From positions 12,039,543-12,103,542 of the forward strand of contig OX457032.1 of the NCBI GenBank assembly GCA_949752745.1: DNA of 64,000 nt, given 5' to 3'. Below, in pieces: positions 3,694 to 62,300 of the stretch (within the stretch, counting starts at the first letter, position 1; each line of letters opens with the position of its first letter). Origin of the DNA: Protula sp. h YS-2021. Its lineage: Eukaryota; Annelida; Polychaeta; Sabellida; Serpulidae. Under the pieces are notes generated by a model. It saw only the letters and a list, made by a program, of their open reading frames with translations, did not search any database and was not told where the DNA came from. The position numbers and the translations under genes were made by a program.

Positions 3694-6600
3694 ATGGAGA
3701 CAACTTCGGCCATATTTTCATCACGGGAACCACCAGATTTCGCTGGCGAGATGGAATTCAATACCGAAGGCCAACTGGAAGATATTGAGCAAGGCACTCT
3801 GTGTATGGATGCAATGTCTTCCGGAGTTACAATGGCAACGGTTACTATTTCTCCTCATGATATCCAGGCAATGACAGGTAAGTTGACTGTCGATTTTCTG
3901 TTGCCAGGGGTTTGCAGAAAGACGAAATTAAAATAGCGCGTACCAGTTTCCCTTCATGTTAGATGAAGCTGACATATAACTATATTCACGAACCGTAAAG
4001 CTTTATATTGTGTTAAAATAAAAAAGGACGCAGTCAATTTATCTAGAACAAAACTGCAATGCTTTTGTCAAGTGATGAGAAAAAAACAACAACAACCACA
4101 AAGGGGCAATGGCTGTTAAAACTACAGCCCGAGGACTTTGCTCTTCTTCCTCTACAGAGAACGGTTCGGCGGCAGTTCGTTATGAAGCGGAGAACTCGCA
4201 GAATCAAGTCATGAGTCTCTTTCTGCAACCTGATGTAAGTGATCTTTTTTTTCTTTCGGCTACGTCAGATTTGAATATAAAGATATTACATAAATTTCTC
4301 TTATATTTAAAATCAAGTTGAAAGAAGAGCTTTGACTTTTAATTCAGCTGTGGAAAATGTGAATTTTTTTCGCGTGTGCTTTGTGAAGGCCAAAACAGTC
4401 TTTATATGGGCATGTAATGGTGTGGACCAGATTACTTAAAATGTGTATACCGGTTTTAAGCAACATAGTAGTAATAACAGTAATAATAGTAATAACAAAT
4501 AGAAAGGTTGTGAGGTTAATGTACACATTCCTTCTAAATGCTGTATATAGCATCGTTCGTTTTGTGAAAATCGTGTATATGTGCTCAACGAACGAATCAA
4601 ATGGACAGTTGTCTGTGGTAATGGTCATAGGTTTAAACAAATCTGATCAATAGGTCAGATTTATTAAGTGTTTAACAAGAAAAAAAAAACAGAATTGCAA
4701 ATATAGATGCAGACCTGAGAAACAGCGAAACACTGAGAAACTCGGTACCCGCTGCAGCCTGAACCCGGGACCTTAAGCTTCCTAAGCGGAAATGTTACTG
4801 GGACCACCTAACTCCCTTGCGTTGCCTACTTGCAAGACGAAGTACACCTTGGGGCCAGCAAAGGGACAGTTCTTCCCGTTTGCTTCGAGCTCCACCCACT
4901 AACCCTACATAACGATTCCGCCCTCCCTTGCAGCATGCTGCTGTTTTTCTTGCCGGACTTTCAGCAGTGTGAGAGGGCGATGAAAACAAATTCAAAAAGT
5001 CCGGTATTTTGTACAGGGAAGCCATTGTATTGTCCCTTCACGGGGGCAAAGCCGGGAGGGGAACACTTTAGTCAGGGTTTCGCTCTGCTGCTGTTCTCCT
5101 TTCTGGTCGTTCAGTAACGGTTTCCCTACACGCAAGTAGGCCACATAAAATGCCAGATTGCTTGATGATGTTGCACCCGAAAAGATACTGAGTGTTGACT
5201 CTCGCTTCTCTGGCAACAGTTCCAATCTCTTACGTCGGTCAGATCGAAGTAGAATAGTAATGAAAGAGCGGATAAAAACGATAATCAGGTGCATAGGTAA
5301 GTGGAAAGGCACTGAAAATTTAATTGGGGGCGATAATCAGGTGCATAGGTAAGTGGAAAGGCACTGAAAATTTAATTGCAGCAAAAGGATGCTTGTAATA
5401 TGAAAGGGAAGTGTTTGTGCACTAATTATAAGGGTTATAAGAGTTATAAAAGAAAGAAAATCATGTAAATTGTTATGCAGACGGCGACGGATTTGCAGCA
5501 CATCACATCGCTGGCGGAACAGCAAGGCATAAGCATCATGCAAGAACCGGTGCAACAGGTACAGTGTCATGAAACTGATCAAATATGCTGTCGTTTTGTA
5601 TGCCTTAAAATTGCCAATTTGGGGGTTAATTCAACCATAAAAAAGAGGGGGAGGGGGGGGGGGGGGGGGAGAAAAAAATACCACTTAAAATGTAATCCAA
5701 ATTAATTATGTGTGGGTTTCGATATTTCTAAAATATGGATAAGAGAAATTTCAACTGAATTTTCGTCGTATTTTCTGCAGTGACTGTTATGTTTAAGATG
5801 GAGGGTGACACAATTAAGGGTGAAGAGGGCAGCATCTCCATCGTGAAACAAGATGGGATGCACGACGCAGGTATGTGTGCCGCGTCATCGTGTGCCGCGC
5901 CATCGTGTGCTGCGTCATCGTGTGCTGCGTCATCGTGTGCCGCGTCATCGTGTGCCGCGTCATCGTGTGCTGCGTCGTCGCGTGCCGCGTCATCGTGTGC
6001 CGCGTCGTCGTGTGCTGCGTCGTCGTGTGCTGCGACATCGTGTGCCGCGTCATTGTGTGCCGCGTCGTCGTGTGCCGCGTCACCGTGTGCCGCGTCACCG
6101 TGTGCCGCGCCATCGTGTGCTGCGCCGTCGTGTGCCGCGTCACCGTGTTCCGCGTCATCGTGTGCTGCGTCACCGTGTTGCGCGTCATCGTGTGCTGCGC
6201 AAGAATAACGATGCTTAAGACATCGAGAAGTCTGTATTTGTTGTGTGTCTATTACTTTTTATGCGACAAACTGGAGGGAAAAAAACAAAATTTTATTAGG
6301 TCTCTTCTTCCAATTTTACCATTTATAAAGTTGTCCAGTTCAAAAAGTCTGACACGGACCGTATAGAACTATGTTGTTTGCTCTCATACAGTGGTATGGC
6401 TCAGCAGGAAAAAAAAAAGATTTTTTTTTAAGTTACGTGTATTCCGAGTTTTCATTACGGGTGCTTGAGCCAGAAAGCAAAGCCAAAGTCTATGATTTCC
6501 GCGACTTTGTTCGTAGGTGAGCTGAGGGAGGATGACGACACAGCGTCACTTCTGGCGAAACTAGAGGCGAATAACCCGAACAGGAACAGCGTCGTACAGC

Positions 6601-9600
6601 TTACCAGCGACGGCAAGGTAAGCTAGTATTTGTTCTCGAGGGCGGGGAGGGGGGAGGGGGTTGGAAGGGCTGATTTTTTCTCTTTAATGTGTGTGTGTGT
6701 GGGGGGGGGGGGGGGGGTTTATCCTAGTAGCTCTCTGTCCTAACATCGTATGTTTGATTACCGTAGTTTAACGTGCGGTACCATACATTTACGTTTTGTA
6801 TTTTTGGTGGTAGATAATAAAAGGCTTGACAATGCAGCGTGTGGCCGGGGTTGAGTGCGCTAATGAGAACAGCGGAAGTTATGCGAAAGCGGGAAGGCCG
6901 TTACAGCAAATAACACTGCCTGATGGTATAACTGCATATGTACAACACATCGGGCAAGCAGGTTTGATTTTCCTTTTTGAACCGTTATACAAAATCAGTG
7001 GTATTAAAAAAACACACACACACACAACAGCGGTGTACAGATCATCGTTACGCGTACGACTTTAACTGTCAACTTCTGGGACGCACTGTGCTTGCAACAA
7101 ACACAACACCCACTCAATTGAACCATAAAAGACGAACTTTGTGTGAGAGATGTGTAATTGTGAAGTACGTCATGTTTGCTGGCAGAGACGATGCAGATGG
7201 TTCGCCTGACCGACGGCACGGTAGCCTACATGGCGGCCGACATGCTCCAACCCGTCACCGCTACGGTCAACCTCAACCTACAGGCTGCAGACCAGAGCCA
7301 GGTTAGTCATATGCGAGTTGTGTCCAGTAAATACGCATAGCTGGCTACCGAGCGCTGAATATGAAGTAGGGTGTTAAAATGTGTTGGAAGCCCAAACCAC
7401 GGGACCTGTAGGTTGTCCATAAAGCTGTGAGCTGACAACTGTAACATGTTCTTAAGGGGAAGGAGGAAACACAGAAGAGGGACTCCACATCAGCTGCTAG
7501 TACTTGGATTAATGAGCTCAACACGGTACGTCTTTTAAAGGAGGCTGATTCAGTCACGTGACATAAATAAGACATTGCAGGAAGGTGGCATGTGGGTCTG
7601 TAGCACATCTGGTGACCATCAGCTGTCAACATCTGTGCCGTGGTGGTTTAAGACATTATGCTTGAAACAAAAAGAATTTTTGGAGTGCTTTATTCATAGT
7701 AGCAGGATTGTTTTCAGGGCTGCAATTGAAATCTCGTTGTCGGGGCTTAGCTTCGACCTCATTCGTTGTTTTTCCGTGGCTCACGTGACGTTGTCTGCGA
7801 CATTTCAGGGTGAAGAGGACTGCGACGAAAGCGGAAGTGAGGGTGTAGCCAGCGCGCAGCCGCACGTGGGGGTGGCAGGGGAGAACGAGCGCACTGTCCA
7901 GGTACCTGGCCATACTCATCCCTCCACCCCCCCCCCCCCCCCCCCTCCCCGCTACATACTGCGCTATTTCTTCCCCCGAAATTCATAGCTTTTAGCTTAA
8001 ATTAGCGCCTGGAAAGTTGTTATTTTTGGACTTTTCTTTCGGGAAGCCAAACTATAAAATGCGTTGCTGCCGTGAATTTAAACTTAAGAATGAAACTTTT
8101 GTTCATGATCAATTTTTGCTGTTTAAAGCTTTTAAAATATTAGGATTTTTAACACCGACGTTTCGATTTTTACTGTTGGAAAAGTCGTAACTGCTAAAAC
8201 TTCGTTAAAAGGTGGAATTTATTTGAACTTGTAAAATACGAAGTGAAAAGTGCAAATGTTGTATTTAAAGGTTTTGAAGATAAGATATGTAGCCATAAAA
8301 GAGGTTTAAAGTAACTAACATCTGCAGCACTAAACATGTGCCGCACAGAATTTTTACATATTTTAGTGGTGCTTCCCCCCCCCCCCCAACCCTCCGTTAC
8401 AAGATAGGAATGGCTATTATATGTACGTGTCTGGCAGTGTCTGTGTCGGGAGGTCAGCGGAAGACGATACGCGTACAGCTGGCGGAAGAGGGCGCGCACA
8501 GTCTGGGCATTGACGAGAAGATCTACAAGTGCCTGTTTGAGGACTGCGGCAAAATCTACACGTCACACCACCACCTCAAGGTACAGCTGGTCGGCTTTGA
8601 AAATCAGTATTTAAGCCAAATTATTGCGTTCACTCTGCGCTTTTTGAATAATGAAAGAAAAAGGTTGTTCGCTCAGTACCTGAATTTCAATGGGTTTGGG
8701 GTATGGCCAGTGGGTGGTGGCTGTTAAAAACAATCCGCCTCGGTTGCTTTATTATTTAGAGCATTGAGACTCTTGTTCCCTGCTCCAGTATCCAGGTAAA
8801 GAAGCTTGTCTAGGGAAAAAAAGCCGTGTATCATTCTTATCAGTTGCGATCGGTTATCGCCAGGTCCATCAGCGATCGCACACCGGGGACCGGCCTTACA
8901 TCTGTGATGACATCACGTGTCAGAAGGCGTTTGCCACGGCGTACGGTCTCAAGAGCCACAAGCGGATCCACACGGGGGAGAAGCCGTACCGGTGCACGGC
9001 CGACGGCTGCCGCAAGGCCTTCAAGACGAGTGGCGACCTGCAGAAACACACGCGCACGCATACAGGTGAGGCGGAAGTCACACAACATGCAGCACCATTC
9101 GATTGCTGTCAAAATAAAGGCCTTTGAGTTAACATCAACCCCCCCCCCCCCACCCACGAATTCGAGATTATAGTACTAAGCCCGAGACTGACAATGAGCG
9201 TTGTGGTGTTTAGGTGAGAAGCCATTTGTTTGTCCGTTCGAGGGCTGCAACAAGCGCTTCACGACATCAAACATCCGTAAAGTTCACATCCGGGTACACA
9301 CAGGCGAGCGTCCGTACCAGTGCCCCGTGACCGAGTGCAGCAAGAAGTTCTCAAGCGCCACCACTACAAGAACCACATCCGCATACACACAGGTACTTGC
9401 CCCGAGACCACATCGGCATACACACAGGTACTTGCCCCGAGACCACATCCGCATACACACAGGTACTTGCCCCGAGACCACGTCCGCATACACACAGGTG
9501 CTTGTCCCAAGACCACATCCACATACACACAGGTACTTGCCCCGAGACCACATCCGCATACATACAGGTACTTGCCCCGAGACCACATCCGCATACACGC

Positions 9601-12600
9601 AGGTACTTGCCCCAGGCCATATCCGCATACACACAGGTACTTGCCCCGAGACCACATCCGCATACACACAGGTATTGCCCCGAGACCACATCGGCATAAA
9701 CACAGGTACTTGCCCCGAGACCACATCCGCATACACGCAGGTACTTGCCCCAAAACCACATCGGCATACACACAGGTACTTGCCCCGAGACCACATCCGC
9801 ATAAACACAGGTACTTGCCTCGAGACCACATCCGCATACACACAGGTACTTTTCACAAGACCACATCCGCATACACACAGGTACTTGCCTCGAGACCACA
9901 TCCGCATACACACAGGTACTTGTCCCAAGACCACATCCGCATACACACAGGTACTGGCCCCGAGACCACATCCGCATACACACAGGTACTTGTCCCAAGA
10001 CCACATCCGCATACACACAGGTACTTGCCCCGAGACCACATCCGCATACACACAGGTACTTGTCCCAAAACCATATCCGCATACACACAAGTATTTGCCC
10101 TGAGACCACATCCGCATACACACAGGTACTTGCCCCAGGCCATATCCGCATACACACAGGTACTTGCCCCAAAACCATATCCGCATATACACAGGTATTT
10201 GCCCTGAGACCGCGTCCGCATACACACAGGTATGCACCCCAAAGTGTAAATAAAGTTTATTGTGTAAGTGTAGGTTGACTGGGCTTAATGCTGACGTATG
10301 TTGGGCAGGTGAGCGTCCGTACGTCTGTACAGTGCCGGGCTTGCGGCAAGCGCTTCACCGAGTACTCGAGTCTCTACAAGCACCACGTGGTTCACACGCA
10401 TAGCAAGCCCTATGTCTGCAGCCACTGCGGCAAGACCTACAGGTAAGCGACATGTCCCGTGTCACCATGACTACCTCCCCGCGTCACCCTGACGTGATCT
10501 GGCCTCGTGACTATGACAACCAGTCTGCGTCACCGTGACGTGATCAGGCCGCCTCACCATGACGACCAAGCCGCGTCACCGCGACGTGATCAGGCCGCGT
10601 CACCATGACGACCAAGCCGCGTCACCGCGACGTGATCAGGCCGCGTCACCTTGACAACCAGGCCGTGACAACGACGCCGCTCAACGCTGTCTGCATTGAA
10701 TTGAGTTCAATCTGTAGCATTTATTGCAAGATCTCCGTATCGTCATGGCTTTCGAGATATTTTTTCTGCTCAACGGTGGTATATGGCATTACAGGCTCTT
10801 TTAATGATTAGGTGTAAATATTACATGGATGTGTTAGAATAAAAAGTACGGTGTTTTTCACGGTTTGGTATACCGGCGTTTGCGCATGCGCACAAAATTT
10901 GTTGCGTGACCCAAGCAGTGTGCTTGTCGGGGCTTCCAGGCAGACGTCGACGTTAGCAATGCACAAGCGACAGGCCCACAACGACGACTCGCCGCTCACC
11001 GACCTCGAGAATCGCCCTGGTCTTACAGCCGGAGCACCCGCCGCCTGACCCGAAGGTCAACTACATGCCTGGTGAGTACCCCCCCCCCCCCTCTCCGTCA
11101 GCCCCCGACCCCAAGGCCAACTACATGCCTGGTGAGTACCCCCGACCCCAAGGCCGACACCATGCCTGGTGAGTACCCCCCTGGCGACCCCAAGACCAAC
11201 ACCATGCCCGGTGAGTACCACCCCCCGACCCAAGGTCAACTACATGCCTGGTGAGTACCCCCCCCCCTCCGTCAGCCCCCGACCCAAGGCCGGCCNNNNN
11301 NNNNNNNNNNNNNNNNNNNNNNNNNNNNNNNNNNNNNNNNNNNNNNNNNNNNNNNNNNNNNNNNNNNNNNNNNNNNNNNNNNNNNNNNNNNNNNNNNNNN
11401 NNNNNNNNNNNNNNNNNNNNNNNNNNNNNNNNNNNNNNNNNNNNNNNNNNNNNNNNNNNNNNNNNNNNNNNNNNNNNNNNNNNNNNNNNNNNNNNGGCCA
11501 ACTACATGCCTGGTGAGTACCCCCCCCCCCCCCCCCTCCGTCAGCCCCCGACACAAGGCCAACTACATGCCTGGTGAGTACCACCCCCCCGACCCCAAGG
11601 TCAACTACATGTCTGGTGAGTATCCCCCCCCCCCCCCCCGCGACCCCAAGTCCAACACTATGCCCAGTGAGTACCCCCCCCCCCCCCTCCTCGGGCCCTA
11701 AGGCTAACTACATGCCCGGTAAGTACCCCCCCCCCCCTTCCCCGGCCCCAAGGCCAGCTGCGTGCCTGGTGAGTAGGCTACCCGTCTCCTCGACCCCAAG
11801 GGCCAACATGCCGCGTCACTCGTGCATACTAAAAAATTTAACGCAGGCAGTTTCATCCAGTTTCATGGTGGTGACCTTAGATCTGATTCGTCAAACGAGA
11901 AAAGTAAGGTGTTGCGATGATGTGTAGCTAAGTGGAACTAAGATGTTCAAAGTTTGTTTATGTATAGTTTGAATTAAAAAAAATACCCTAAGCTGAATGT
12001 TTCCACAAATTTGAAATAAATATATTGCAAGTTTACACTAATGATTGCTTTTCTTTTATTCGCCCTAGAATCGGAAATTGGAGAAGGTGCTTTAGTCATT
12101 AATACAAGCGAAGCTCAGACGTCACAGAACACAGAGGACCTCTTCCGGCTTAGACGTGAGTGGTTGTCTGTTTGTATTCTACAGTATTGATTGTATTCTA
12201 CTGAAAGAGGGAACATTTCAATGTGTAAAAGGCATCTTAATGTGTTTGTTCAGCACGTTGTTAAGATGTTTCGTGCCGACATCACGTGTTCCGTGCCGAG
12301 ACCACGTGTTTCGTGCCGAGACCACGTGTTTCGTGCCGAGACCACGTGTTCCGTGCCGAGACCACGTGTTCCGTGCCGAGACCATGTGTTCCGTGCCGAG
12401 ACCACGTGTTTCGTGCCGAGACCACGTGTTCCGTGCCGAGACCACGTGTTCCATGCCGAGACCACGTGTTTCGTGCTGAGACCACGTGTTTCGTGCCGAG
12501 ACCACGTGTTCCGTGCCGAGACCATGTGTTCCGTGCCGAGACCACGTGTTTCGTGCCGAGACCACGTGTTCCGTGCCGAGACCACGTGTTCCATGCCGAG

Positions 12601-14820
12601 ACCACGTGTTTCGTGCTGAGACCACGTGTTCCGTGCCGAGACCTCTTGTTCCGTGCCGAGACCACGTGTTCCGTGCCGAGACCACGTGTTTCGTGCCGAG
12701 ACCATGTGTTCCGTGCCGAGACCACTTGTTTCGTGCCGAGACCACGTGTTTCGTGCCGAGGCCACGTGTTCCGTGCCGATACCATGTGTTCCGTGCCGAG
12801 ACCACGTGTTCCGTGCCGAGACCACGTGTTCCGTGCCGAGACCACGTGTTCCGTGCCGAGACCACGTGTTCCATGCCGAGACCACGTGTTTCGTGCTGAG
12901 ACCACGTGTTTCGTGCCGAGACCTCTTGTTCCGTGCCTTGACCACGTGTTCCGTGCCTAGACCACGTGTTCCGTGCTGAGACCACGTGTTCCGTGCCGAG
13001 ACCACGTGTTTCGTGCCGAGACCACGTGTTCCGTGCCGAGACCACGTGTTTCGTGCTGAGTCCTCTTGGTCCGTGCCGAGACCACGTGTTCCGCGCCTAG
13101 ACCACGTGTTCCGTGCCTAGACCACGTGTTTCGTGCCGAGACCACGTGTTTCGTGCCGGGACCACGTGTTTCGTGCCGGGACCACGTGTTCCGTGCCGGG
13201 ACCGCGTGTTTCGTGCCGAGACCACGTGTTTGGTGCAGAGACCACGTCTTTCGTACCGAGACCACGTGTTCCGTGCTGAGACCACGTGTTCCGTGCCGAG
13301 ACCACGTGTTCCGTGCTGAGACCACGTGTTTCGTGCCTGGACCACGTATTCCGTGCCGAGACCACGTGTTCCGTGCCGACACCACATGTTCCGTGCCTAG
13401 TCCACGTGTTCCGTGCCGACACCACGTGTTCCGTGCCTAGACCACGTGTTTCAGATACGCATGCTTCATCTGTGTAATGACGTGTCATTGAAATAAACAG
13501 GCGAGGTTTTAAAGACTTAGCTAATATTTCTTATAAACAGAGTGAGTACACGGAAAGTGTGCCGCATGAGCCTCGAGTACCTATGGAAGCGAGTACTCTC
13601 AGTACTGTCAGTGCAAGTACCGCAGAGAGCCAGGACAGCAAGCCGAATATCAGTATTGTGGTGCCGGCAGGCCACGCCGGTACTGACGTCTCCAGCCAGC
13701 GTCTCTTCATCATCACCGACCCGTCACAAACACAAGCCGTTCTACAGGTAACACAAGCCGTTCTATAGGTAACACAAGCCGTTCTACACGTAATACAAAC
13801 CGTTCTATAGGTAACACAAGCCCTTCTACAGGTAACACAAGCCGTTCTATAGGTAACACAAGCCGTTCTATAGGTAACACAAGCCGTTCTACAGGTAACA
13901 CATGCCGTTCTATAGGTAACACAAGCCCTTCTACAGGTAACACAAGCCGTTCTATAGGTAACACAAGCCGTTCTATAGGTAACACAAGCCGTTCTACAGG
14001 TAACACATGCCGTTCTATAGGTAACACAAGTCGTTCTACACGTAACACAAGCCGCTCTATAGGTAACACAAGCCGTTCTACACGTAACACAAGCCGTTCT
14101 ATAGGTAACACAAGCCCTTCTACAGGTAACACAAGCCGTTCTATAGGTAACACAAGCCGCTCTATAGGTAACACAAGCCGTTCTACACGTAACACAAGCC
14201 GTTCTATAGGTAACACAAGCCCTTCTACAGGTAACACAAGCCGTTCTATAGGTAACACAAGCCGTTCTATAGGTAACACAAGCCGTTCTACAGGTAACAC
14301 ATGCCGTCTATAGGTAACACAAGCCGTTCTACAGGTAAACCACTCGACAGTCACACAGGCGCTCTGTCAAACAGGGCAAGGTTCAGTAGAGATTTTACTT
14401 GAAATTTTAGCCGTTTGTCTTTAGGCAGCTTCTGTTACAGTCACCTTATTTGTTTTTCTTTCGCAAAATAACATGATAGACATTAGATGTAGTGCATTCC
14501 TTGTTCTGCATGTGTCATATTTTGGCGACCTTTTCTATGTATTTGAATTTTAAATCGAAGGGTAAAACTTGGGAAGATTTTTGTAATGTCAACGCGGAAT
14601 GACGTCAGAATACAATGCAGTGTTTGGTTTGCAAGATGAACAAAAAAAGAATATGTGGTGATGACGTCACAGTTTATCTTGTGTGTTTACGTTACAGCAA
14701 ATCGCCGGTCAACGGGTGGATCTGCGGGAGGTAGGAGTTGAGAACGTCACAACGCCACAGACTGCTAGGCAACCGGCCGCTACGACAAGCCTACACTGCA
14801 AATCAGAACCGTTCCAATAG
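3694..14820 (+). CDS. ZNF143: ZNF143/ZNF76 (Staf)-type C2H2 zinc-finger transcription activator
   Basis: Sequence-specific nuclear activator. In vertebrates this family binds snRNA, selenocysteine-tRNA and many Pol II promoters and supports promoter looping. Proposed exons: 3694-3877, 4128-4234, 5481-5558, 5798-5870, 6517-6617, 6814-6961, 7186-7301, 7457-7525, 7809-7901, 8458-8580, 8864-9065, 9214-9392, 10309-10442, 10940-11071, 12069-12155, 13521-13747, 14698-14820. Intron phases agree throughout, and after correcting three indels the total is 2175 nt, about 724 residues; from memory human ZNF143 is about 640. The N-terminal part has the family's acidic activation repeats ([21 protein letters not shown]). 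Seven C2H2 fingers follow, from [19 protein letters not shown] to [19 protein letters not shown], with TGEKP linkers. Single-base indels sit near 9363 (-1), 10341 (+1) and 11015 (+1). The fingers are certain. Exons 4128-4234, 5798-5870 and 7457-7525 and the start of exon 13521 rest on splice phase alone. Confidence 0.93.
5874..6199 (+). repeat. 15-bp minisatellite at a ZNF143 5' splice site
   Basis: About 22 copies of GTGTGCCGCGTCATC begin within 4 bp of the donor (GCAG|GTATGT) that ends the exon at 5870. The unit length is a multiple of three, so the array is open in several frames on both strands. Those open frames are repeat artefacts. Confidence 0.9.
9363..9363 (+). other. ZNF143: Single-base deletion in zinc finger 5
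   Basis: Finger 5 reads [16 protein letters not shown] and should continue [10 protein letters not shown] as in the family. Restoring one base in the run ACCACTAC at 9360-9367 recovers exactly that. As assembled, the frame changes and both zinc-binding histidines are lost. It may be an assembly or consensus error next to the 35-bp array, or a real change. Confidence 0.8.
9371..10231 (+). repeat. 35-bp minisatellite made of exon tail plus splice donor
   Basis: About 25 copies of a 35-bp unit. Each contains the last bases of the ZNF143 exon that ends at 9392 (CACATCCGCATACACACAG, encoding HIRIHT) followed by intron start GTACTTGCCCCGAGAC. Each unit therefore carries a copy of a GT donor in its native context. 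Because 35 is not a multiple of three, the reading frame rotates every unit. All frames are largely stop-free, which gives spurious ORFs of 270-317 codons on both strands. Confidence 0.95.
10341..10342 (+). other. ZNF143: Single-base insertion in zinc finger 6
   Basis: The exon starting at 10309 encodes [10 protein letters not shown] and then reads TTGCGGC where TGCGGC would give the expected [18 protein letters not shown]. Removing one T restores canonical finger 6. In the assembled sequence this +1 compensates the -1 at 9363, so the frame downstream is correct without any correction. Confidence 0.8.
10456..10672 (+). repeat. Approx. 46-bp minisatellite just inside a ZNF143 intron
   Basis: About four to five imperfect copies built from GCGTCACCGCGACGTGATCA and CCGCGTCACCATGACGACCA. 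The array begins about 14 bp after the donor AG|GTAAGC of the exon ending at 10442. It contains several TGACG/CGTCA half-sites, probably by repeat composition. Confidence 0.8.
11015..11016 (+). other. ZNF143: Single-base frame break in post-finger exon
   Basis: The exon from 10940 reads [15 protein letters not shown] and runs in that frame to a TGA at 11046-11048. The phase needed to join the exon at 12069 is one base different (reading [17 protein letters not shown]). One extra base in the CGCCCTGG run around 11015 explains both. The alternative is true termination at 11048. Confidence 0.6.
11055..11781 (+). repeat. Approx. 55-bp minisatellite of exon tail plus GTGAGT donor
   Basis: Repeated units contain CCAACTACATGCCTG followed by GTGAGTAC, the exact junction of the ZNF143 exon ending at 11071. 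After the junction come a C-homopolymer and CCGTCAGCCCCCGACCCCAA. Unit length varies with the C run. The array contains the window's only assembly gap, so its real length is unknown. Confidence 0.9.
11296..11495. other. Assembly gap, 200 N
   Basis: Exactly 200 unspecified bases, inside the exon-junction minisatellite and its C-homopolymers. The round length suggests a placeholder of unknown true size. Confidence 0.99.
12271..13452 (+). repeat. 20-bp minisatellite with CACGTG in most units
   Basis: About 59 units of ACCACGTGTTCCGTGCCGAG lie in the ZNF143 intron between the exons at 12155 and 13521, starting about 115 bp after the donor. Most units contain a CACGTG palindrome (the E-box core) and two further CpGs. 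The unit is about two helical turns, so the CACGTG sites lie on one face of the helix. Open frames here on both strands are artefacts. Confidence 0.95.
13730..14338 (+). repeat. 21-bp minisatellite of exon tail plus splice donor
   Basis: About 29 copies of ACACAAGCCGTTCTACAG|GTA, with TATAG and TACACG variants. The first copy is the end of the ZNF143 exon at 13747 (QTQAVLQ) with its donor, and later copies reproduce the same exon/GTAAC junction. Confidence 0.95.
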
Positions 14821-15326
14821 CTGTGACAGGAAGGGGAGAGGGAGGGGTCACGGGCGGGAGGGTGGGGGGAGGGGGGGAATAGGGTTAATATTAGAACCCC
14901 GGGGAGTGCTGTGGCGGGCGGGTTGCATGCTGCGATAAAATTCTATTATTTCCGGGACATGGCAGAGAACGGGCTTCCCCCACAAAGGCCTGTCCAGTGT
15001 GTGACTGGAGAACGACTGGGGTGTGTCAGTGTGTTGTTTTGAATCACGCGAAACTGCACAATTCATTTAAATAAGTCTTAGGTAATTTAATTCATTTAAT
15101 GAATAGACTCAAAATAAGTACGTAACTAAGGAAAAGCATAAAATAAATAAAATAGCGAGGAGTGCAAAAGAAATCGTGTTCTCGAACGTTCTGATTATGG
15201 TAAAAAAAATCACCGTCAAATTACTGAATATTGTTTAAGACACTGGAACTGGAAGTTAAGTGCCTGTATTGCAATTGTTTTGGTGGGAATTGTTAAGTGT
15301 GTGGGAGGGCGCAACAGTGATGTATT
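14821..15326. other. ZNF143 3' flank
   Basis: Downstream of the proposed stop (TAG 14818-14820). A G-rich tract occurs at about 14835-14880, and overlapping AATAAA motifs in an A-rich stretch near 15141-15152 may serve polyadenylation. I see nothing else. Confidence 0.4.
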
Positions 15327-16889
15327 TATCCCCCGTGAAACGGAGGGATATAGGTTTGAGATTGTCCGTCCGTCCGTCCGTCCCCTCTTCAAGCTAAGGA
15401 CTTTGTGGACACCACTTCTATATCAACGAAGCATAATTCAGCTTTCATATTTCATACAGGCAAAATATAGGGTATAAAGATGTGCAACGTCAAGGTTTCA
15501 GTTTGATCGAAGCAAAATTGACAAATTGACAGGCTTTTGAAAATCGTCGAAAATAGACATATGTGCACATGTATAGGACTTTGTGGACACCACTTCTATA
15601 TCAACGAAGCATAATTCAGCTTTCATATTTCATACAGGCAAAATATAGGGTATAAAGATGTGCAACGTCAAGGTTTCAGTTTGATCGAAGCAAAATTGAC
15701 AAATTGACAGGCATTTGAAAATCGTCGAAAATAGACATATGTGCACATGTATAGGACTTTGTGGACACCACTTCTATATCAACGAAGCATAATTCAGCTT
15801 TCATATTTCATACAGGCAAAATATAGGGTATAAAGATGTGCAACGTCAAGGTTTCAGTTTGATCGAAGCAAAATTGACAAATTGACAGGCTTTTGAAAAT
15901 CGTCGAAAATAGACATATGTGCACATGTATGAACTTTGTGGACACCACTTCTATATCAACGAAGCATAATTCAGCTTTCATATTTCATACAGGCAAAATA
16001 TAGGGTATAAAGATGTGCAACGTCAAGGTTTCAGTTTGATCGAAGCAAAATTGACAAATTGACAGGCTTTTGAAAATCGTCGAAAATAGACATATGTGCA
16101 CATGTATAGGACTTTGTGGACACCCACTTCTATATCAACGAAGCATAATTCAGCTTTCATATTTCATACAGGCAAAATATAGGGTATAAAGATGTGCAAC
16201 GTTAAGGTTTCAGTTTGATCGAAGCAAAATTGACAAATTGACAGGCTTTTGAAAATCGTCGAAAATAGACATATGTGCACATGTATAGGACTTTGTGGAC
16301 ACCACTTCTATATCAACGAAGCATAATTCAGCTTTCATATTTCATACAGGCAAAATATAGGGTATAAAGATGTGCAACGTCAAGGTTTCAGTTTGATGGA
16401 AGCAAAATTGACAAATTGACAGGCTTTTGAAAATCGTCGAAAATAGACATATGTGCACATGTATAGGACTTTGTGGACACCACTTCTATATCAACGAAGC
16501 ATAATTCAGCTTTCATATTTCATATAGGCAAAATATAGGGTATAAAGATGTGCAACGTTAAGGTTTCAGTTTGATCGAAGCAAAATTGACAAATTGACAG
16601 GCTTTTGAAAATCGTTGAAAATAGACATATGTGCACATGTATAGGACTTTGTGGACACCACTTCTATATCAACGAAGCATAATTCAGCTTTCATATTTCA
16701 TATAGGCAACATATAGGGTATAAAGATGTGCAACGTCAAGGTTTCAGTTTGATCGAAGCAAAATTGACAAAATGACAGGCTTTTAAAAATCGTCATAAAT
16801 CGACATATATGCAAACGGAGTGGACTTCAAGGAAGGGTGTCCAGCTTAGATATTGCATAGGGGTAATATTTAGGGTTTCACGGGGGATA
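15327..16889. mobile_element. Pearl/Helentron-like element with 178-bp tandem core
   Basis: Short inverted ends TATCCCCCGTGAAAC (15327-15341) and GTTTCACGGGGGATA (16875-16889) enclose a CCGTCCGTCCGTCC microsatellite at about 15366-15383 and about eight near-identical 178-bp repeats (15395-16830) that start at ACTTTGTGGACACCACTTC. Inverted ends, an ACGG/CCGT tetranucleotide run and long core repeats are the published layout of bivalve 'pearl' elements, now linked to Helentrons. No coding sequence is present. The copies are nearly identical, so the array was amplified or homogenised recently. Confidence 0.7.
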
Positions 16890-34626: not shown

Positions 34627-36448
34627 TAGTATCACTGTGATTTGGATCGAATTGGCTGTTTGACTATAAAACACGTTTATTGAACATAATTGGCTAGCAT
34701 ATACAACCTTACTTAAAATTATTTGCATAGCCTTGGCCCGTCTGTTGCTGCTAAATCAGTGACTAATAATAATCCTTCTTCTTGCAGGACTTCTCAGCAA
34801 TCCGGTGTGAAGAAGGACTTTAAAAAAAGGTGGCCCATAGACTTTGTCTCAGCCGTCGGACGGCTAGTCGCTGCGTCGACATAGTGTAACTTTTCCCTTC
34901 ACGTGACTGGCCTTGTGTCGACTCGGCACAGTCGCGTTTTGTACCAGTCGCGTCTTGTACACACTTCCGTTTTGCACATGGTACAACACGGCACTGGAGG
35001 GTCTTCACAGACTGTTAAGCCGTATCTGGATTGCTATGTTGTATTTCGCCCCTTTTGTGCAACAACAAATTATGAGCTCGTATCAGTCTGTCTGTATTTG
35101 TTAGAGCATTCAGTGTTGTTGTTAGCAATGAGCAGCCCGTGGAGACACTCCACTTGACCACGTTGTTGTTTTGAAATGGGAAGCTATCTATGAGATCCCG
35201 CTGGATTTAAAGATTTCATCGTCTTTATTTCTTTTATTTCTGCCTTTTCGGTGCAATTTCTTGTAGACAGTTTTTTTGTTAAACATTTCGTATGCATTCG
35301 ATGCTAAGTTCCAACTGCCGATTCAAGTCTACTATAGTAGGGCTTCTTAGCTTGCAAACCGATATTTTCCAAGTTAAAAATGAAGTATTTAATTTTCTAA
35401 TGCTTATTACATTAATAAGATATTTTGTAGACGTAGAAGCCATAACTTGAGTTGTATCCGCCCACCTCTCCGTCAATCCTGATCAAGGTAAGTTCAATCA
35501 GGTCACTGACGCTGCACTGACGCTGATTGATCGATTGGTTGACAACGCATGGCAAACACAGCAACAGATGAAAGCGTTCTGCATATACATATGCCTAGAA
35601 ATTCTTATTACAGATCTGTTAATGTTAACACACTGGAAAACTCATGATGTCTTCTGCGAGATATTTTACAAATAAAAATGAGTATTAAGAAATTAAATGC
35701 TTCAGGTAACTGTGATCTAATCTTTCATTAATTTTTTATCTCTAATTTAATCTTTCATTAAACGGCTTATATGAGTTTTTATATGCACTATACCCACAAA
35801 GAATAGGTCAACTGTGAAATCAGATACCTCGCGAAATTTGACCACTGCTCGTCTAAAGCTCCACGCAAACTCTCTTTTTCGGAATTACGCGAAAGAAATT
35901 CATCATGTGTCAACTGCTTGAAAAATATATATGAATATGTAATATTACATTAACTTGTTGTTTATCATGTTTGCAGGCTAGATGTTAAAATAGGATATGA
36001 TTAATCTGTTGCAGAGCATTTGGTACTTTTGCTGGCCGGTTACAAATTTGCAAGGGAACAATCATATGAAGGAACAACTCCGCGGGTGCCTTTGAACAAT
36101 GTTGGATCAGCGTCACGTTTTCTTTTAATCCTCGTTTTACTTCTCATCCATAAAGGGTGTGCTAGATCGCGAGATGCACAAGACCATGGACCAGAGTTTG
36201 TAGTATCATAGGCAATTTTTAACTTTTTATTTAGTCACGCCATATTACCGGTATGTTTTTTTTTAATTTTGCAAATAGAAGGTAGTAACTACGGGGTCAT
36301 AAATTTGGGCAGTCAATGTCTTGCATTGTTAAAGAAAAAATAAAGATAGGACATAATTTAATTATTCACACATGATATCAACTGTTGAGCACCAAACACT
36401 GACGTCACTTGCATCTGAGGCAATTGATGTTGCTCCCAGTACTAAGAT
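34627..36448. other. AT-rich spacer
   Basis: No firm gene. A possible terminal exon at 36015-36211 is discussed in the findings. An exon-like stretch with strong GTAAGT at about 35431-35487 has stops in every frame. Confidence 0.3.
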
Positions 36449-36632
36449 GGGGTAACGGTTAACTTAGTTGGTTAGAGCGTTGGTTTGGTAATTCGAAGGC
36501 CCCGTGTTCGATTCCATCTCGGATTGTTGTTCGCTCCAATTGCCTTAGCTAAGCAAATGCGGTGGGTTAAATCACCTATCACGGAATTCAAAATTAACGT
36601 CCACAGAGGCTATCGACCATCCCTTTAAAAAT
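36449..36632 (+). mobile_element. tRNA-derived SINE, copy 1
   Basis: A tRNA-like head (A-box-like AACTTAGTTGGTTAGAGCG; B box GTTCGATTCC at about 36506) is followed by a non-tRNA body TTCGCTCCAATTGCCTTAGC...ATTCAAAATTA...ACCATCCCTTTAAAA. A second copy with the same body is at 52785-52976. The head no longer folds as a functional tRNA. Confidence 0.8.
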
Positions 36633-52784: not shown

Positions 52785-52976
52785 ACCGACGGTTAGCTCA
52801 GTCGGTAGAGCGTTGGTCCTGTAATCCTATGGTCCCTGGTTCGAATCTGGCCAGGGATGGAAAGCGGGGGATTTACCTTCGCTCAAATTGTCTCAGCTAA
52901 ACGACTGCACAGGATTATTCACCACCACAGTATTCAAAATTAGCACAAATGAGTCTTCCGGCCATCCCTTTAAAAA
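52785..52976 (+). mobile_element. tRNA-derived SINE, copy 2
   Basis: The head has near-consensus Pol III boxes (A: TTAGCTCAGTCGGTAGAGC; B: GGTTCGAATCT) and could derive from tRNA-Thr. The body GCTCAAATTGTCTCAGCTAA...TATTCAAAATTAGCAC...GGCCATCCCTTTAAAA matches the copy at 36449. The acceptor stem does not pair, so it is not a working tRNA gene. Intact boxes mean it may still be transcribed. Confidence 0.85.
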
Positions 52977-53985: not shown

Positions 53986-54179
53986 CGTTAACATACACAG
54001 TAACTTGTGAGTCATGATACATTCGAAGGATAACCTGCCCGGGTAAGCGGAACCAGCATCCCACGAGGCCAACTGGAATAAGCATGTTTATCATGCGTCT
54101 CCAAAAAAAAAAAAATAAATAAAAAATAAAAAATAAAAAAAACATATAAAAAAAAATAGAAAGGGAGATTTTGAGCCCA

Positions 54180-54420: not shown

Positions 54421-54614
54421 TTGAAATACCCCCAGTTACACAAAACGCTGACAACCAGGTAAATTTCGACCCTTGAATGGGTCGTTTTAAATTTAGTAAT
54501 AAAATACGCCTTTTCACCAAATCATATATTTATGAGTACAGGCGGGGTCAGAACGCACGTTACTGCAATCATTGAAAAACTAGACAGGCACTGACATGGA
54601 GACGTGCCAGTGCA

Positions 54615-55190
54615 CGATTGACACCCCCTTCCTCCCTCTCTCCCTCCCCCTCCACTCCTTCCTCCCCCTCTACCTCCCCCTCCGCCCCCTTCCTCCCACC
54701 CCTCTCCCTCCCTCCACCCCTTCCTCCCCCTCCCTCCTCCGCCCCCTTCCTCCCACCCCTCTCCCTCCCTCCTCCATCCCCTTCCTCCCACCTTTCTTCC
54801 TCCCTCCTCCACCCCTTCCCCCCACCCCTCTCCCTCCCTCCTCCATCCCTCTCCCTCCCTCCTCCACCCCTCTCCCTCCCTCCACCCCTTCCTCCCCCTC
54901 TCTCCCTCCCTCCTCCGCCCCTCCCTCCACCCCTTCCTCCCACCCTCTCCCTCCCTCCTCCATCCCCTTCCTCCCTCCCTCCCACCCCTCTCCCTCCCTC
55001 CTCCATCCCTCCTCCACCCCCTTCCGCCCACCCCTCTCCATCCCTCCACCCCTTCCTTCCACCCTCTCCCTCCCTCCTCCATCCCCTTCCTCCCACCTTT
55101 CTCCCTCCCTCCCACCCCTCTCCCTCCCTCCTCCATCCCTCCTCCACCCCCTTCCGCCCACTCCTCTCCCTCCCCCCCCCCCCCACCCCT
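54615..55190. repeat. Homopyrimidine minisatellite, about 575 bp
   Basis: Plus strand almost entirely C and T with scattered A (CTCCCTCCCTCCTCCACCCC, CTTCCTCCCACCCCTCTCC). The strand asymmetry is extreme. Mirror-symmetric stretches could form triplex (H-DNA). All six frames are largely open, giving spurious 170-224-codon ORFs. Confidence 0.95.
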
Positions 55191-55194
55191 GCTG

Positions 55195-56100
55195 CAACAT
55201 GGTGTCCCAGTGCAGAAGGAGGCAGGATTGTCAGATTTCGAGATGGTTACAATGATATAAAACTCCTCATTTATGGACTCCGAATTAGCTGATAGCTTCT
55301 GTATGTAATCATCTCAAAACTTTTATCAAAGATGCTATTTTTGTACTATTTGTGAAATGTTTGAACTTAGTATTGAATTAAATAATACTGAATTCAGACC
55401 TCAATTTGTTCGGCTTGGATACGCCATCGAAACGTAACAATTTAAAACGGATTTTTCTGCTCTATGGACCTCAAAAATGAGACCGCATTTTCAAACAGAT
55501 CGTAATCTCTAAGATTTAGTTCGACAATACTCCTCGTACAGATCTGTAGCTCTTGCTCAAAAACATAACACGACAAACTATTGTAATTTTTTTATTTATT
55601 CTAAAAATATATTGTATAAGGTATTGAACTAGACAAACACGTAACGTGTAAAATTCTAAAAATGATTATGATATAATATAAGATATAAAATTTTAAAAAA
55701 ATAAAGCGAAAATTTGTTCCTTACACTGATTTGAAAATGTAACCATTCAATAAAATAAATGCCCTCTTTAACTTTATGTCTATACACAAAAATCCTGCAT
55801 AACAGCCTCCACCGAGGAAAAATGACGTTAACAATTAGTCTGGATGCTCTACCATCTGTAACCTAACCGATGACTTAAACCGTAGAAAATCTGGCACATA
55901 TAAATACATGACATAACGTACTCACGTGATAATACAATAATATATTTCTAACCTACACCAGTCGTATTTTAATAGCAATCAATTTATGTTTGTATAGCAG
56001 TGATAGGAAAAATGACTGATAAAACATATTTATGAATAAACAAAATACACTTTCCAAATGTGTGAACAAACCTATAATTCACATTGTCTACTGTCCGTAG
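55195..56100. other. SLC49A4 3' flank
   Basis: AT-rich, with no gene or element ends seen. Confidence 0.4.
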
Positions 56101-56228
56101 CCTATGGTATTTTATTGTATGGTATGGTATATTGTGGTAAGGTATTGTATGGTATAGTATGGTATGGTGCGGTATGGTGTGGTATAACATAGTATGGTAT
56201 GCTATGGTGTGGTATGGTATGGTATGCA
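56101..56228. repeat. (GGTAT)n degenerate pentanucleotide repeat
   Basis: About 24 copies of GGTAT with substitutions, beyond the SLC49A4 stop codon. Confidence 0.9.
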
Positions 56229-56368
56229 CGCTACTGTATGCACGACAAAACAATGACAAGTCTCCGTATTCTTCAGTACCCTCTGTTCACTATGTATTTT
56301 AAGTTGAATAGTTTCATTTGGTATTTCGATTAAAAATCACAGAATTTGGTCCATAATTTGCTGACAGT

Positions 56369-59300
56369 TCAGTTGATCACATCCACTTTATCTTCGCCAT
56401 TAACAATTAAAATCTCGGCATCGACCTTGAGACGATTGTAGCTCTCCTTGAAACACAGCAACAGCGGCACACACAATATCAGCGACCCAAACAGGCACCA
56501 GCTCATCCAGGCTACACCTGTGGCGCCAACACAACACATGGGTTATGTAGGCCAAAATAATAAACACCAGAGGAACCGCCGGGCGTGAAAAGTGTGGTGG
56601 TTTCTTCAGTAACAACTGGGAGCGAGAGGTTAGGGAGTCAGAGAAGGGAGTGGAGGAGATAAATAGGAGGGGCAGCGATGTAGGTTAGGGAGTCAGAGAG
56701 GGTGAGTGGAGGAGCTAAATAGTGGGGGGGGGGGGGGGGGGGAGGGGGGGGAGGGCGAGGGGAGCGAGAGAGGTTAGGGAGTCAGGGAGGGTGAGTGGAG
56801 GAGGGAAATAGTCGGGGGGGGGCGAAAGAGGTTAGGGAGTCAGAGAGGGTGAGTGCAGGAGGGAAAATAGCATCAATGACGAAATGCTGCTTTAAACACG
56901 ACATTTAACAATTACATGACTATACTTAGTGATATTTAACCTGTACCGTATAAACAAAGCATCGTACCTATGTTTGGTATCACAAACACACAGAGGAATA
57001 TGATTGGTCCAACGTTATACATGATTGTTAACACGCTAGTTGTAACAATCTCGCTGATTGGATAATTGGTCTCGGCTGCCATTTCAAAATACAATGGCGT
57101 GGGCCCGTTGTTACACACTCCAAGGACGATCACAGACGCGTACAGCTGGTCTACAACACAACACATAAGCTGGTCTACAACACAACACATAAGCTGGTCT
57201 GCAAGACAAGACAAAAGCTGGTCTACAAGACAAAACAAAAACTGATCAAAAAGACAACACAAAAGCTATTCAAAACAACACAAAAGCTGGTCTACAAGAC
57301 AACACAAAAGCTGGTAAAAAAGACAACCCAAAAGCTGGTCTACAAGACAACACAACAGCTGGTCTACAAGACAACCCAAAAGCTGGTCTACAAGACAACA
57401 CAAAAGCTGGTCTGCAAGACAACACAAAAGCTGGTAAAAAGACAACACAAAAACTGGTCTGCAAGACAACACAAAAGCTGGTAAAAAGACAACCCAAAAG
57501 CTGGTCTACAAGACAACACAACAGCTGGCCTACAAGACAACCCAAAAGCTGGTAAAAAGACAACACAAAAACTGATCAAAAAGACAACACAAAAGCTATT
57601 CAAAACTACAACACAAAAGCTGGTCTACAAGACAACACAAAAGCTGGTAAAAAGACAACACAAAAACTGGTCTGCAAGACAACACAAAAGCTGGTAAAAA
57701 GACAACCCAAAAGCTGGTCTACAAGACAACACAACAGCTGGCCTACAAGACAACCCAAAAGCTGGTAAAAAGACAACACAAAAACTGATCAAAAAGACAA
57801 CACAAAAGCTATTCAAAACTACAACACAAAAGCTGGTCTACAAGACAACACAAAAGCTGGTCTAAAAGACAACACAAAATGTCACAAAAGTTTGGTTTTG
57901 GTTTATACCTGACGTCTCTATTTATGTGGAGGGCGTTGGGGTGGGAGGTGGGGGGATGTAAAAGCGGCCGACATACCGTGTTCCGGGGAGGCTAAGGGTT
58001 AAATAACTGAACCCCTCCCCCTCTCAACTAAAATTACCCATACCTCACGCACTTCTATAATGTATAGTAACGTCATACTCACAGGCAGAGCATGGAATGT
58101 AATGCTGTAATGTTCACACTGACATGTACAGTATAAATGTAATACTGTAATGTGTGGCACTGTCCATATTCACGTGTAAAGTACGTAATGCTGTAACGCA
58201 TAGAACAGTTCACACTCACATGTAGAGTATGGAATGTACCGCTGTAACGTATGGCACAGTTCACACTCACGTGCACAGTATGGAATGTAATGCTGTAACG
58301 TATGGCACAGTTCACACTCACGTGCACAGTATGGAATGTAATGCTGTAACGTATGGCGCAGTTCACACTCACATGTAGAGTATGGAATGTACTGCTGAGA
58401 TGCGAGTATGAACCAGTAGGAGCTGAAGACGCACCCACACTGCAGCACCACTGATATCACTTTCATCTTCCCCGACACCAAGTCCGCCAACCTGCCAACA
58501 ATAATAGAACTACAACAGTCTCAGTACTATACATTGTTGCCTACTCACTCCACCTCAAGATGTGCTCAGAAGCCGCTATAATCACGCCAGACCCATCACT
58601 GCAATACCATTCAAGAGCTACAGCAATTACAAGGAAAATACCAGACAGCCAATGAAAGTGCGCCTTACCTTCCGCACAAAACCGACGCGAAGCAACCAAT
58701 CATGACACCGGAAAATCCGAGCCAACCAGCTTGTACCTGCGGGAGACAAAAGCACACACCGGTGACTTAACCTGCCTCTGCTCGATTCACACCCAGGAAG
58801 TATTTATTTTTGGAAATTATCTGTGCTGTTTTTTTTTACGTAACTCAATATCGATAACATACAACAATTGTGCATTTAATGATTATGACTGCGGCTATAA
58901 AATGACACAAAGGCCTTGTCTGCCAGATTAGTCCATGTCACATTTATACGGGTACGATCAGAGCCGCATTCCCTTTGTGGTACAATACTTATGAGCAGCA
59001 CCTAGCAAACCGGTGTTCTTCCCTTACGTTCGGCACCTTACGTCAAAGTTACCTTAAGATCACACACGGAGAAAAGCCGACAAGTAATCCCCGACCACCT
59101 TACCTCAGACACTCCAGGCTTCAGCAACACATCCAACAAACCCGACCACACGCCGTAAATGCCCACAAGCACTCCCCAACCACCTTACCTCAGACACTCC
59201 AGGCTCCAGCAACACATCCAACAAACCCGACCACACGCCGTAAATGCCCACAAGCACTCCCCAACCACCTTACATCAGACACTCCAGGCTTCAGCAACAC

Positions 59301-62300
59301 ATCCAACAAACCCGACCACACGCCGTAAATGCCCACAAGCACTCCCCGACCACCTTACCTCAGACACTCCAGGCTCCAGCAACACATCCAACAAACCCGA
59401 CCACACGCCGTAAATGCCCACAAGCACTCCCCAACCACCTTACATCAGACACTCCAGGCTTCAGCAACACATCCAACAAACCCGACCACACGCCGTAAAT
59501 GCCCACAAGCACTCCCCGACCACCTTACCTCAGACACTCCAGGCTCCAGCAACACATCCAACAAACCCGACCACACGCCGTAAATGCCCACAAGCACTCC
59601 CCGACCACCTTACCTCAGACACTCCAGGCTTCAGCAACACATCCAACAAACCCGACCACACGCCGTAAATGCCCGCAAGAACTCCCCGACCACCTTACCT
59701 CAGACACTCCAGGCTTCAGCAACACATCCAACAAACCCGACCACACGCCGTAAATGCCCGCAAGAACTCCCCGACCACCTTACCTCAGACACTCCAGGCT
59801 TCAGCAACACATCCAACAAACCCGACCACACGCCGTAAATGCCCGCAAGAACTCCCCGACCACCTTACCTCAGACACTCCAGGCTCCAGCAACACATCCA
59901 ACGAACCCGACCACACGCCGTAAATGCCCACAAGAACCCCCCGACCACCTTACCTCAGACACTCCAGGCTTCAGCAACACATCCAACAAACCCGACCACA
60001 CGCCGTAAATGCCGGTAGATATCGTTGCCGCCAAACACAGTAACCAGAAATTTAAATGCTTCTTTCTGTACAAAATTGCACAATATTGTTCTCAATATGA
60101 CTGTTACATATATGTATTAACAAGCATGTCCAAGGACATGACCCAGCCGAGTTACCAAACAAGGAAAGAGAGAAAAACTTTGAAACGAATACTGTTAGGC
60201 CAAAAAAATGAAGTACGTAAAATGCATTTAATTCGAATTTGGAAGCTACCTGAAAAGGGATGTTAGAGAGGTTTTCTTTTGACGATTCACGTATTTACCG
60301 ACATTTACACAACTTCACAAAATTTCTAAAATTCCACAATATCGGCATTTTTTGTCATTTGCGAAAAAAAGCAAAGTCCAGGTGGAGAAGCACCTAAGAA
60401 ACTTTCGATTAAAATTTTATAACTATTTGAAAAAGACTGAGAGAAATGAATGGTTTGACAATTGAGTTATTTATTACCATTTCTTCCAGTTTTTGCCAAA
60501 CTTCAAAGTTCCGCCATTCCGGCAGTTTTTGGCGAACCGCGAAAAAAATGATAGCCTGGTAGGAGAACCCCTGGGGAACATCCCTGCGTAACATCTAAAC
60601 GATTGGAGTAAAACTATAGGAGGAGTAGCATTTTAAAAATGGGTCAAAACGGGTACAAAAAGTGCCGCCATTTTGTCAGTTTTTTCGTCAATCGTCAAAA
60701 AAAATAATAGCCAGGTGCAGGACCACCCAGGGAACATTCTTGCGTAATATCAAAACGATTGGAACAAAACTGTAGGAGCAGAAGCATTTTAAAGAAAAAG
60801 TTTAACATACGCACATACATTCAAGCTCCCTATGACTAACCCAGACCGACAAAGTCGGCTGGGTTAAAAACTAAATAAATACATAAAACAATTGTTTAAG
60901 CCACCGCCACTGTTATAGTGTGGCATATGCAGCCTTCCCAAGTAGAACGCCTCAAATTAATGGAAAAGCAACAGTATTGAAGAAATATGACCGTGGAAAT
61001 TGATCTAAGCTTCAAACCGTAGCACTAACTTCAGCAATTGCTGCACCCCTTTGAACACATTCAGCTTTGGCAAGGACGCCGAGCGACTGGGGGGACTTGG
61101 TGGCTTGGAAGGAAAGTAGGTCAAAACGGTGCAGAAAACTAGAACGACAGCGGCGCACTCTCCCAGGCGGACATAGCGTATCTGTCTACGCATTTCGTCA
61201 ACATCTGCACGAGAAAATCCAAAGTCAAAAGATGTCGTTATTCACGTTGTTTTCTACCGTGATTGCAAGCAAAATGCACTGCACTTCGTTGAAATTTCTA
61301 ACAAAACAGAGCCGTAGCTTTTTAATAAGAAAAATCTTATGTTTTAATGTTTAATTGTATCTCTTCTTACTTGTTCCAATTTTCATCGTTTATTTTTGCC
61401 GACAGAAATTCACGTCAAAATCAGGAAGCTTAAAATGATGACTTACTTATGTACTGCTTGAAATGATGGCTTATTTATGTACTGCTTAAAATGGTGGCTT
61501 ACTTATGTACTGCTTAAAATGGTGGCTTACTTATGTACTGCTTAAAATGGTGGCTTACTTATGTACTGCTTGAAATGATGGCTTGCTAATGTACTGCTTA
61601 AAATGATGACTTACTTATGTACTGCTTCTCCTCTGAATAGCTGCTCACCCATGGTTATGGTTACAAACAAACAACATTTGAACCAATCAGAACGCATAGC
61701 ACAACTCTTCACCACTTAACATAGGTTACTCCCAGGCCTCGCTCTTTTCATCTGAAGTGCCCTCCCGTAACCCAATGCTTATCCCATGTAGTAACAACTT
61801 GCCCCCAAGCGAAAATTGCCCCTCCCCCCTCCCCACACACACGCGACACTGTAAGCAAATAGCGGTTACTGGGAGAACTCGCGCATAAAACACATGCCGC
61901 ATATCTGATGACGCAACTGTGGAATCAATCAGACCATATCTTTCAAAAATGTACGAGGGCATTACCAGGCGTTACGACCGCATACTGGTTTGTATCTGTT
62001 TGCAAATACACATACGTGCCAAGTGTGAAAATATCATTTTAAATGCCGAACAATTGCTTGTGTAGAAACTGAATATAACCATATATCAAATAGAAGAATA
62101 ACGTTAGAGAAGAAGAATTCTAAATACAAAAAGTATAGGAGAAAATTCTGCAAAAAAAGACATATTTTCACCTGTTTAGTGTGACATTTTCTTTTGGAGG
62201 ATCGATGAATGACGGACCTGAAAAAGTCACATAACTTGACCTTTAAACTCGAAAAGTGATGGTTTCCGAAAATATTCATATTAACAACATATGCTCAAAC

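Follow-up and report, generated by a model that had tools for sequence, protein, structure and literature searches.

Minisatellites built from tandem copies of an exon-intron border are known from amphioxus as mirages, the founding description of which is reportedly the Adh paper. Mirages are reported from Adh3, the globin genes BflGb6 and BflGb9, PGBD5 and troponin C, and two further loci, retinol dehydrogenase and presenilin, are cited (PMC3087553, PMC3902484). Their units, of 10-72 and 150-160 bp, are gene-specific, many copies keep AG/GT, and array length varies between haplotypes and somatically (PMC3087553, PMC3902484). Adh3 data and reverse transcription PCR of globins suggest that regular splicing is undisturbed by them (PMC3087553). 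The 64-kb stretch of DNA analysed here (hereafter the window) carries arrays of this type in a ZNF143-like gene and an SLC49A4-like gene (Table 1), with units spanning the border, like those of the mirages, at five of 32 donors and one of 32 acceptors; unlike mirages, two further arrays that begin near donors (5875 and 10457) span no border. It is fairly probable that the former are mirage-type minisatellites, that is, border-spanning tandem copies that are kept because the outermost copy still splices. The likeness to the amphioxus arrays, which had been pointed out in the original prediction for this locus, is right in kind (PMC3087553, PMC3902484).

Four animal genes with a total of 32 introns were modelled in the window, and Tandem Repeats Finder (TRF) revealed 11 intronic minisatellites, of which six cross a splice border, two lie just inside donors and three are interior. 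In the ZNF143-like gene, the border-crossing arrays are found at the donors of introns 12, 14 and 16; in SLC49A4, they are found at the donors of introns 6 and 8 and at the acceptor of intron 8, an intron occupied at both ends. The list was compiled by merging by hand TRF rows with a period of at least 10 within modelled introns; rows of shorter period and rows outside modelled introns were excluded before counting, and a poly-G tract at 56724-56764 was set aside. The 35-bp array occupies 840 of the 916 bp of ZNF143 intron 12. In ZNF143 intron 14, several TRF rows (11102-11775, periods 37-79) were joined across a gap, with the start of the array taken from the exon copy. Exactly 200 N at 11296-11495 represent an assembly gap within this array, and its copy number is therefore a lower bound. 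The acceptor array has a 213-bp higher-order period (TRF), which points to block exchange. The exon borders were set by eye from reading frame, homology and GT/AG, with the array finding already known, and the splice sites are thus predicted ones; the models are less certain for DUF1295 intron 1 and for a few borders close to apparent frame breaks. The exon models reproduce all eight junctions named in the original prediction, with correct coordinates, and TRF and the exon models agree on five donor arrays of exon tail plus GT, one acceptor array and two arrays beginning within 15 bp of a donor.

Table 1. Intronic arrays and modelled genes of the window (positions are those of the window).
Feature	Position	Strand	Location and remarks
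Donor array, 35-bp unit, 25 copies	9372..10232	+	Starts 21 bp inside ZNF143 exon 12 (exon end 9392); TRF
Donor array, irregular 37-60-bp unit, at least 10 copies	11049..11775	+	Starts about 23 bp inside ZNF143 exon 14 (exon end 11071)
Donor array, 21-bp unit, 28 copies found (TRF 29.1)	13729..14338	+	Starts 19 bp inside ZNF143 exon 16 (exon end 13747)
Donor array, 85-bp unit, 11 copies	59072..60013	-	Starts 60 bp inside SLC49A4 exon 6 (exon end 59954); TRF
Donor array, 51-bp unit, 6-7 copies	58112..58397	-	Starts 25 bp inside SLC49A4 exon 8 (exon end 58373); TRF
Acceptor array, 24-bp unit, 28 junction copies cut out (TRF 31.0)	57144..57879	-	Reaches 7 bp into SLC49A4 exon 9 (exon start 57150)
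15-bp array	5875..6199	+	Starts 4 bp inside ZNF143 intron 4 (exon end 5870); exon tail not copied
46/24-bp array	10457..10665	+	Starts 14 bp inside ZNF143 intron 13 (exon end 10442); exon tail not copied
20-bp array, not at junction	12267..13450	+	ZNF143 intron 15, 111 bp from donor, 90 bp from acceptor
Two copies of 52-bp unit, not at junction	5279..5378	+	ZNF143 intron 2
28-bp array, not at junction	61428..61627	-	SLC49A4 intron 4
ZNF143/ZNF76-like gene	3611..14818	+	17 exons modelled, GT/AG borders; C2H2 fingers
SLC49A4/DIRC2-like transporter gene	56372..64000	-	10 exons modelled; 5' part outside window
TSSK-like kinase gene		+	4 exons (3 introns)
DUF1295 steroid-reductase-like gene		-	5 exons (4 introns)

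The position of the arrays at junctions is also evident from a TRF-free echo scan of all 32 introns, in which each donor and acceptor was searched for in its own intron, with 8 shuffles per junction. Copies of the donor junction were found beyond five of 32 donors (scores 27-34 versus shuffle maxima of 8-12); of the 32 acceptors, one is preceded by a strong copy of its junction (25 versus 13). A second acceptor echo, in SLC49A4 intron 5, was weak (12 versus 8) and outside any TRF array, and the scan of ZNF143 introns 4 and 13, containing the arrays at 5875-6199 and 10457-10665, gave no donor echo. Array placement was compared with three null models, placing the whole array in its own intron, a seed unit in the array-free intron, or a seed across the pooled introns. 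Seven of the 11 arrays cross a donor or come within 15 bp of one, versus 1.5, 1.4 and 1.0 expected (P 8e-5, 6e-5 and 9e-6, respectively); five cross the donor, versus 1.0, 1.0 and 0.7 (P 0.001, 0.001 and 0.0003); and eight are located at either junction, versus 2.0-3.0 (P 8e-5 to 9e-4). In the seed model, SLC49A4 intron 8 contributes two arrays counted as independent; variants of the model (poly-G tract added, one motif-sharing array or ZNF143 intron 12 removed) gave a largest P of 0.0034.

That ordinary minisatellites came to lie at borders by chance, in one hand-picked window, is unlikely. For donors, the seed-model P of 6e-5 becomes 1e-4 to 3e-4 with doubtful arrays added or removed, and at five donors the arrays are close copies of the exon's own tail, although the introns are short, so that two to three junction arrays among 11 would be expected anyway, and two of the eight junction arrays have a common motif. 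The sample is small (11 arrays) and the window was picked because of the array feature; the junction excess is for these reasons a lead for a genome-wide test rather than proof. Within the 64-kb window, the placement test supports the proposal that position at the junction is the factor shared by the arrays. As originally noted, the TSSK and DUF1295 genes have no junction arrays; the difference is not significant, with array-bearing introns numbering 10 of 25 versus 0 of 7 in these two genes (Fisher p 0.07).

The units had been described as unrelated in sequence, which is correct only in part. The arrays at 5875-6199 and 10457-10665 have a common motif, GCCGCGTCAYCG, with 20 matches in the window (at most one mismatch), all of them in the two arrays, versus 0.11 expected by chance. 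Comparison of 55 unit pairs on both strands (110 comparisons, the ten best examined) showed that three of these ten beat all 100 shuffles, about one being expected by chance: that of the 5875 and 10457 arrays, that of the 35-bp unit of ZNF143 intron 12 with the 20-bp unit of intron 15, and that of the unit of intron 16 with the one of intron 2. A second test backs relatedness only for the 5875/10457 pair. A common origin of all units was rejected on these counts.

A mutational process specific to the border, in which an R-loop, nick or template switch seeds the duplications, would account for the donor excess over uniform placement (7 of 11 arrays versus 1.0-1.5 expected) and for the seven donor-side arrays versus one acceptor-side array. 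Selection would, however, also produce such an imbalance, as competition from upstream acceptor copies would probably be the more harmful. In the eight junction arrays, GC skew of the sense strand runs from -0.42 to +0.57; with skew of both signs, there is no common G-rich non-template strand and no common R-loop signature, and the latter was rejected. Donors bearing arrays do not differ from the others in the length of their exon or the GC of its tail. For the seven arrays at or near donors, but not for the five overlapping ones, there are slight differences in junction GC (p 0.03) and donor consensus (p 0.04), in a set of 8 uncorrected tests. A border-specific process is thus rather unlikely, and the involvement of R-loops, nicking or template switching, as originally suggested, is unsupported given the skew of no common sign and the unremarkable exon length and tail GC of array-bearing donors.

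The units themselves are built from both sides of the border. At five donors, the unit, repeated 6-28 times, joins 19-60 bp from the exon end to the GT donor and the first part of the intron, the intron-derived part being 2 to 26 bp long in the four regular arrays; at one acceptor, it consists of the end of the intron and 7 bp of exon. GT is kept in all 81 recognised donor copies (25 in the 35-bp array, 10 in the irregular, 28 in the 21-bp, 11 in the 85-bp and 7 in the 51-bp array). This count derives from 83 matches, two of which, obtained at the loosest cut-off and lacking GT, were considered, on inspection by eye, to fall within the 51-bp unit rather than to be copies. AG is kept in 18 of the 28 acceptor copies cut out and absent in 10. 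An open in-frame extension would result from 7 of the 24 downstream donors in the 35-bp array, from 3 of the 5 in the 51-bp array and from none in the 21-bp (27 donors) and 85-bp (10 donors) arrays; in the irregular array, 1 of 9 downstream donors is open and in frame, the frame past the N gap being undefined. Read-through of the 21-bp array meets a stop at the 7th codon, and that of the 51-bp array is open for three extra units. Since the use of a downstream donor often closes or shifts the frame, the first donor is expected to be used; at the acceptor array, the last copy is the predicted splice site. Inspection of the 51-bp unit (58112-58397) by eye revealed an acceptor-like TTACAG and a GTGAGT donor flanking 25 bp of former exon, and several of its copies look like potential micro-exons.

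The presence of GT in every donor copy and the 51-bp read-through could indicate that the arrays are functional, the repeated donors or acceptors tuning splicing or the units adding protein repeats. Intronic CeRep25B minisatellites of C. elegans have been linked to multiple splicing decisions (PMC4039745). Such a role is nevertheless very improbable here: most read-through frames are closed or shifted, the AG is missing from 10 of 28 acceptor copies, and the differences in the exon parts are not concentrated at third codon positions. In the absence of third-position bias the copies do not behave like translated sequence, and protein-level selection on them was rejected.

The exon-derived and intron-derived parts of the donor units differ in uniformity. 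Bases off consensus amount to 4.3% in the exon-derived versus 10.5% in the intron-derived part (21 copies), 1.2% versus 4.8% (10 copies) and 5.3% versus 19.2% (3 copies); in the 21-bp array they amount to 5.3% versus 0, with just two intron-derived columns. For this count, intronic copies of unequal length were left out (3 of 24, 0 of 10, 2 of 5 and 1 of 27), and the irregular array was omitted. Over the four arrays, exon and intron columns differ with a Cochran-Mantel-Haenszel p of 6e-4 (1e-3 without homopolymer columns, 2e-3 also without CpG). The lower divergence of the exon-derived parts hints that the exon copy anchors the array. Neighbouring copies have a mean identity of 87%, 91% and 97% in three arrays. 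These mutual differences, the several unit lengths and the higher-order structure make it extremely improbable that the arrays or their copy numbers result from mis-assembly, to which the 200 N inside one array and the apparent frame breaks, all of them array-adjacent (ZNF143 exons 12-14 and SLC49A4 exon 6), could point. In amphioxus, moreover, arrays of like kind are published, and where one draft was aberrant, trace data still gave the mirage (PMC3087553).

The origin of the arrays as mirage-type minisatellites can be outlined as follows. The initial tandem duplication across an exon-intron border would be nearly neutral, because the upstream donor copy would still end the exon, or the downstream acceptor copy would still start it. 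Further copies would fall into the intron, where unequal exchange or replication slippage could multiply them freely. The true exon copy, being under selection on the protein, would be the fixed member of the array and, by joining exchange within it, could pull the exon-derived columns back to its own sequence. Such a fixed member would explain the greater uniformity of the exon-derived parts.

Several observations weigh against this scheme. The survival of border-spanning duplications accounts for the tolerance of such arrays, but does not alone explain their excess. The splice sites come from reading frame and GT/AG rather than from RNA. The invariant GT is not by itself remarkable, as other columns are equally fixed (invariant columns number 16 of 35, 13 of 21 and 76 of 85 in three arrays), and selection on GT was rejected because its invariance is ordinary among array columns. 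The true donors match the donor consensus no better than the array copies do, so that the site itself gives no reason for the choice of the first donor. Divergence shows no gradient with distance from the exon (Spearman p 0.25-1 for the five donor arrays and 0.26 for the acceptor array) and thus no sign of new copies being born at the exon; an expansion polarity starting there was rejected. The idea of an anchor is also at odds with the 51-bp array, in which the exon copy departs from the copy consensus at 4 exon-part columns, and with the 21-bp array, in which it departs at one column where most intronic copies carry an in-frame stop.

The host was placed by means of its proteins. The DUF1295 protein is 60% identical to that of Branchiostoma belcheri (77% covered) and 60% to that of B. 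lanceolatum (98% covered), compared with 63% for Capitella, 63% for Lottia and 67% for Amphiura; other animals are lower, including the annelid Owenia (57%). Such identity to Branchiostoma indicates that the host does not belong to this genus; identity alone names no phylum. The 41 SLC49A4 matches listed, drawn from a candidate set of limited size and many of them without species name, include no named Branchiostoma protein. In a tree of 23 of these matches, the window protein groups with Capitella teleta and three environmental proteins with a support of 100/100. In a tree of 44 of the 120 DUF1295 matches listed, it is placed weakly beside two proteins without species name and molluscs, and the approximately unbiased test, applied to the short DUF1295 protein only, rejected neither its grouping with Branchiostoma (p 0.148) nor that with Capitella (p 0.189). 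The search with the ZNF143-like protein gave a few matches named zinc finger protein 143 or 76 and no lineage placement, other zinc-finger proteins swamping the list. Taken together, these protein comparisons suggest that a spiralian host is most likely, and probably an annelid one; a cephalochordate genus other than Branchiostoma is unlikely. The original remark that the arrays might represent another lineage is therefore likely to be correct, based on the DUF1295 identity and the SLC49A4 tree.

The assignment of the transporter gene is consistent with an MFS_1 domain (E 1.5e-21) and with matches named solute carrier family 49 member 4. Apparent single-base frame breaks occur in array-adjacent exons at 9214-9392, 10309-10442, 10940-11071 and 60065-59954, and none among the four TSSK exons; they perhaps reflect poorly polished sequence near repeats rather than pseudogenes. 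Shortly downstream of the ZNF143-like gene, at 15397-16813, TRF located eight copies of a 178-bp unit, 98% identical. Of the 121 inverted repeats detected in 3500-15000, the longest 25 are nearly all poly-G/poly-C pairings. Two tRNA-like sequences, perhaps short interspersed elements, were seen by eye at 36441-36510 and 52787-52860; ARAGORN and Rfam (default settings; Rfam gathering threshold) reported no tRNA and no Rfam match in the window.

Related repeats and duplications have been described in other systems. Variable internal tandem repeats of human segmental duplications also comprise minisatellite copies at a border and may form new introns, but they lie within exons of recent paralogs, while the units of the window carry an existing donor into an existing intron (PMC2812944). 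Intron gain in potato RdRp is reported to have proceeded by tandem genomic duplication linked to splice sites (PMC4974935). Unlike that case, the introns of the window seem pre-existing, as each junction-bearing intron retains 76-359 bp of non-array sequence (both SLC49A4 intron 8 arrays subtracted), although only 76 bp are left in ZNF143 intron 12. Among annelids, intronic minisatellites are known from earthworm metallothionein genes, where duplications of the fourth exon are missing from the transcript; the monomers, of about 180 bp, are located in the first intron and are not described as border copies in the available part of the account (PMC12783039). A literature search covering few subscription papers gave no mirage named outside amphioxus among the matches listed.

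A wider reading would make splice borders genome-wide birth sites of minisatellites in spiralians and amphioxus, ancient or convergent, with the exon as a selectively fixed master copy, introns inflated, and AG/GT pairs supplied for new introns or micro-exons; this is a tentative possibility, which we regard as doubtful. Border arrays may be a source of new introns under a model outlined for amphioxus (PMC3087553), and, with as many as 28 near-identical donors one after another, they represent natural experiments on splice-site choice.

The closest counterparts remain the amphioxus mirages. As in amphioxus, both 5' and 3' borders are affected, the units are site-specific (21, 35, 37-60, 51 and 85 bp at donors and 24 bp at the acceptor), and many, not all, copies keep AG/GT (here GT in 81/81 and AG in 18/28). 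Unlike the amphioxus cases, the window has six border-spanning arrays in two genes within 64 kb, at both ends of one intron and with up to 28 copies; its host is not Branchiostoma and probably not a chordate. Arrays of border copies are therefore not new as a phenomenon; new are their density and lineage, this being a probable non-chordate case. If such density holds outside cephalochordates, border copying would be a general way in which introns grow, not an oddity of amphioxus.

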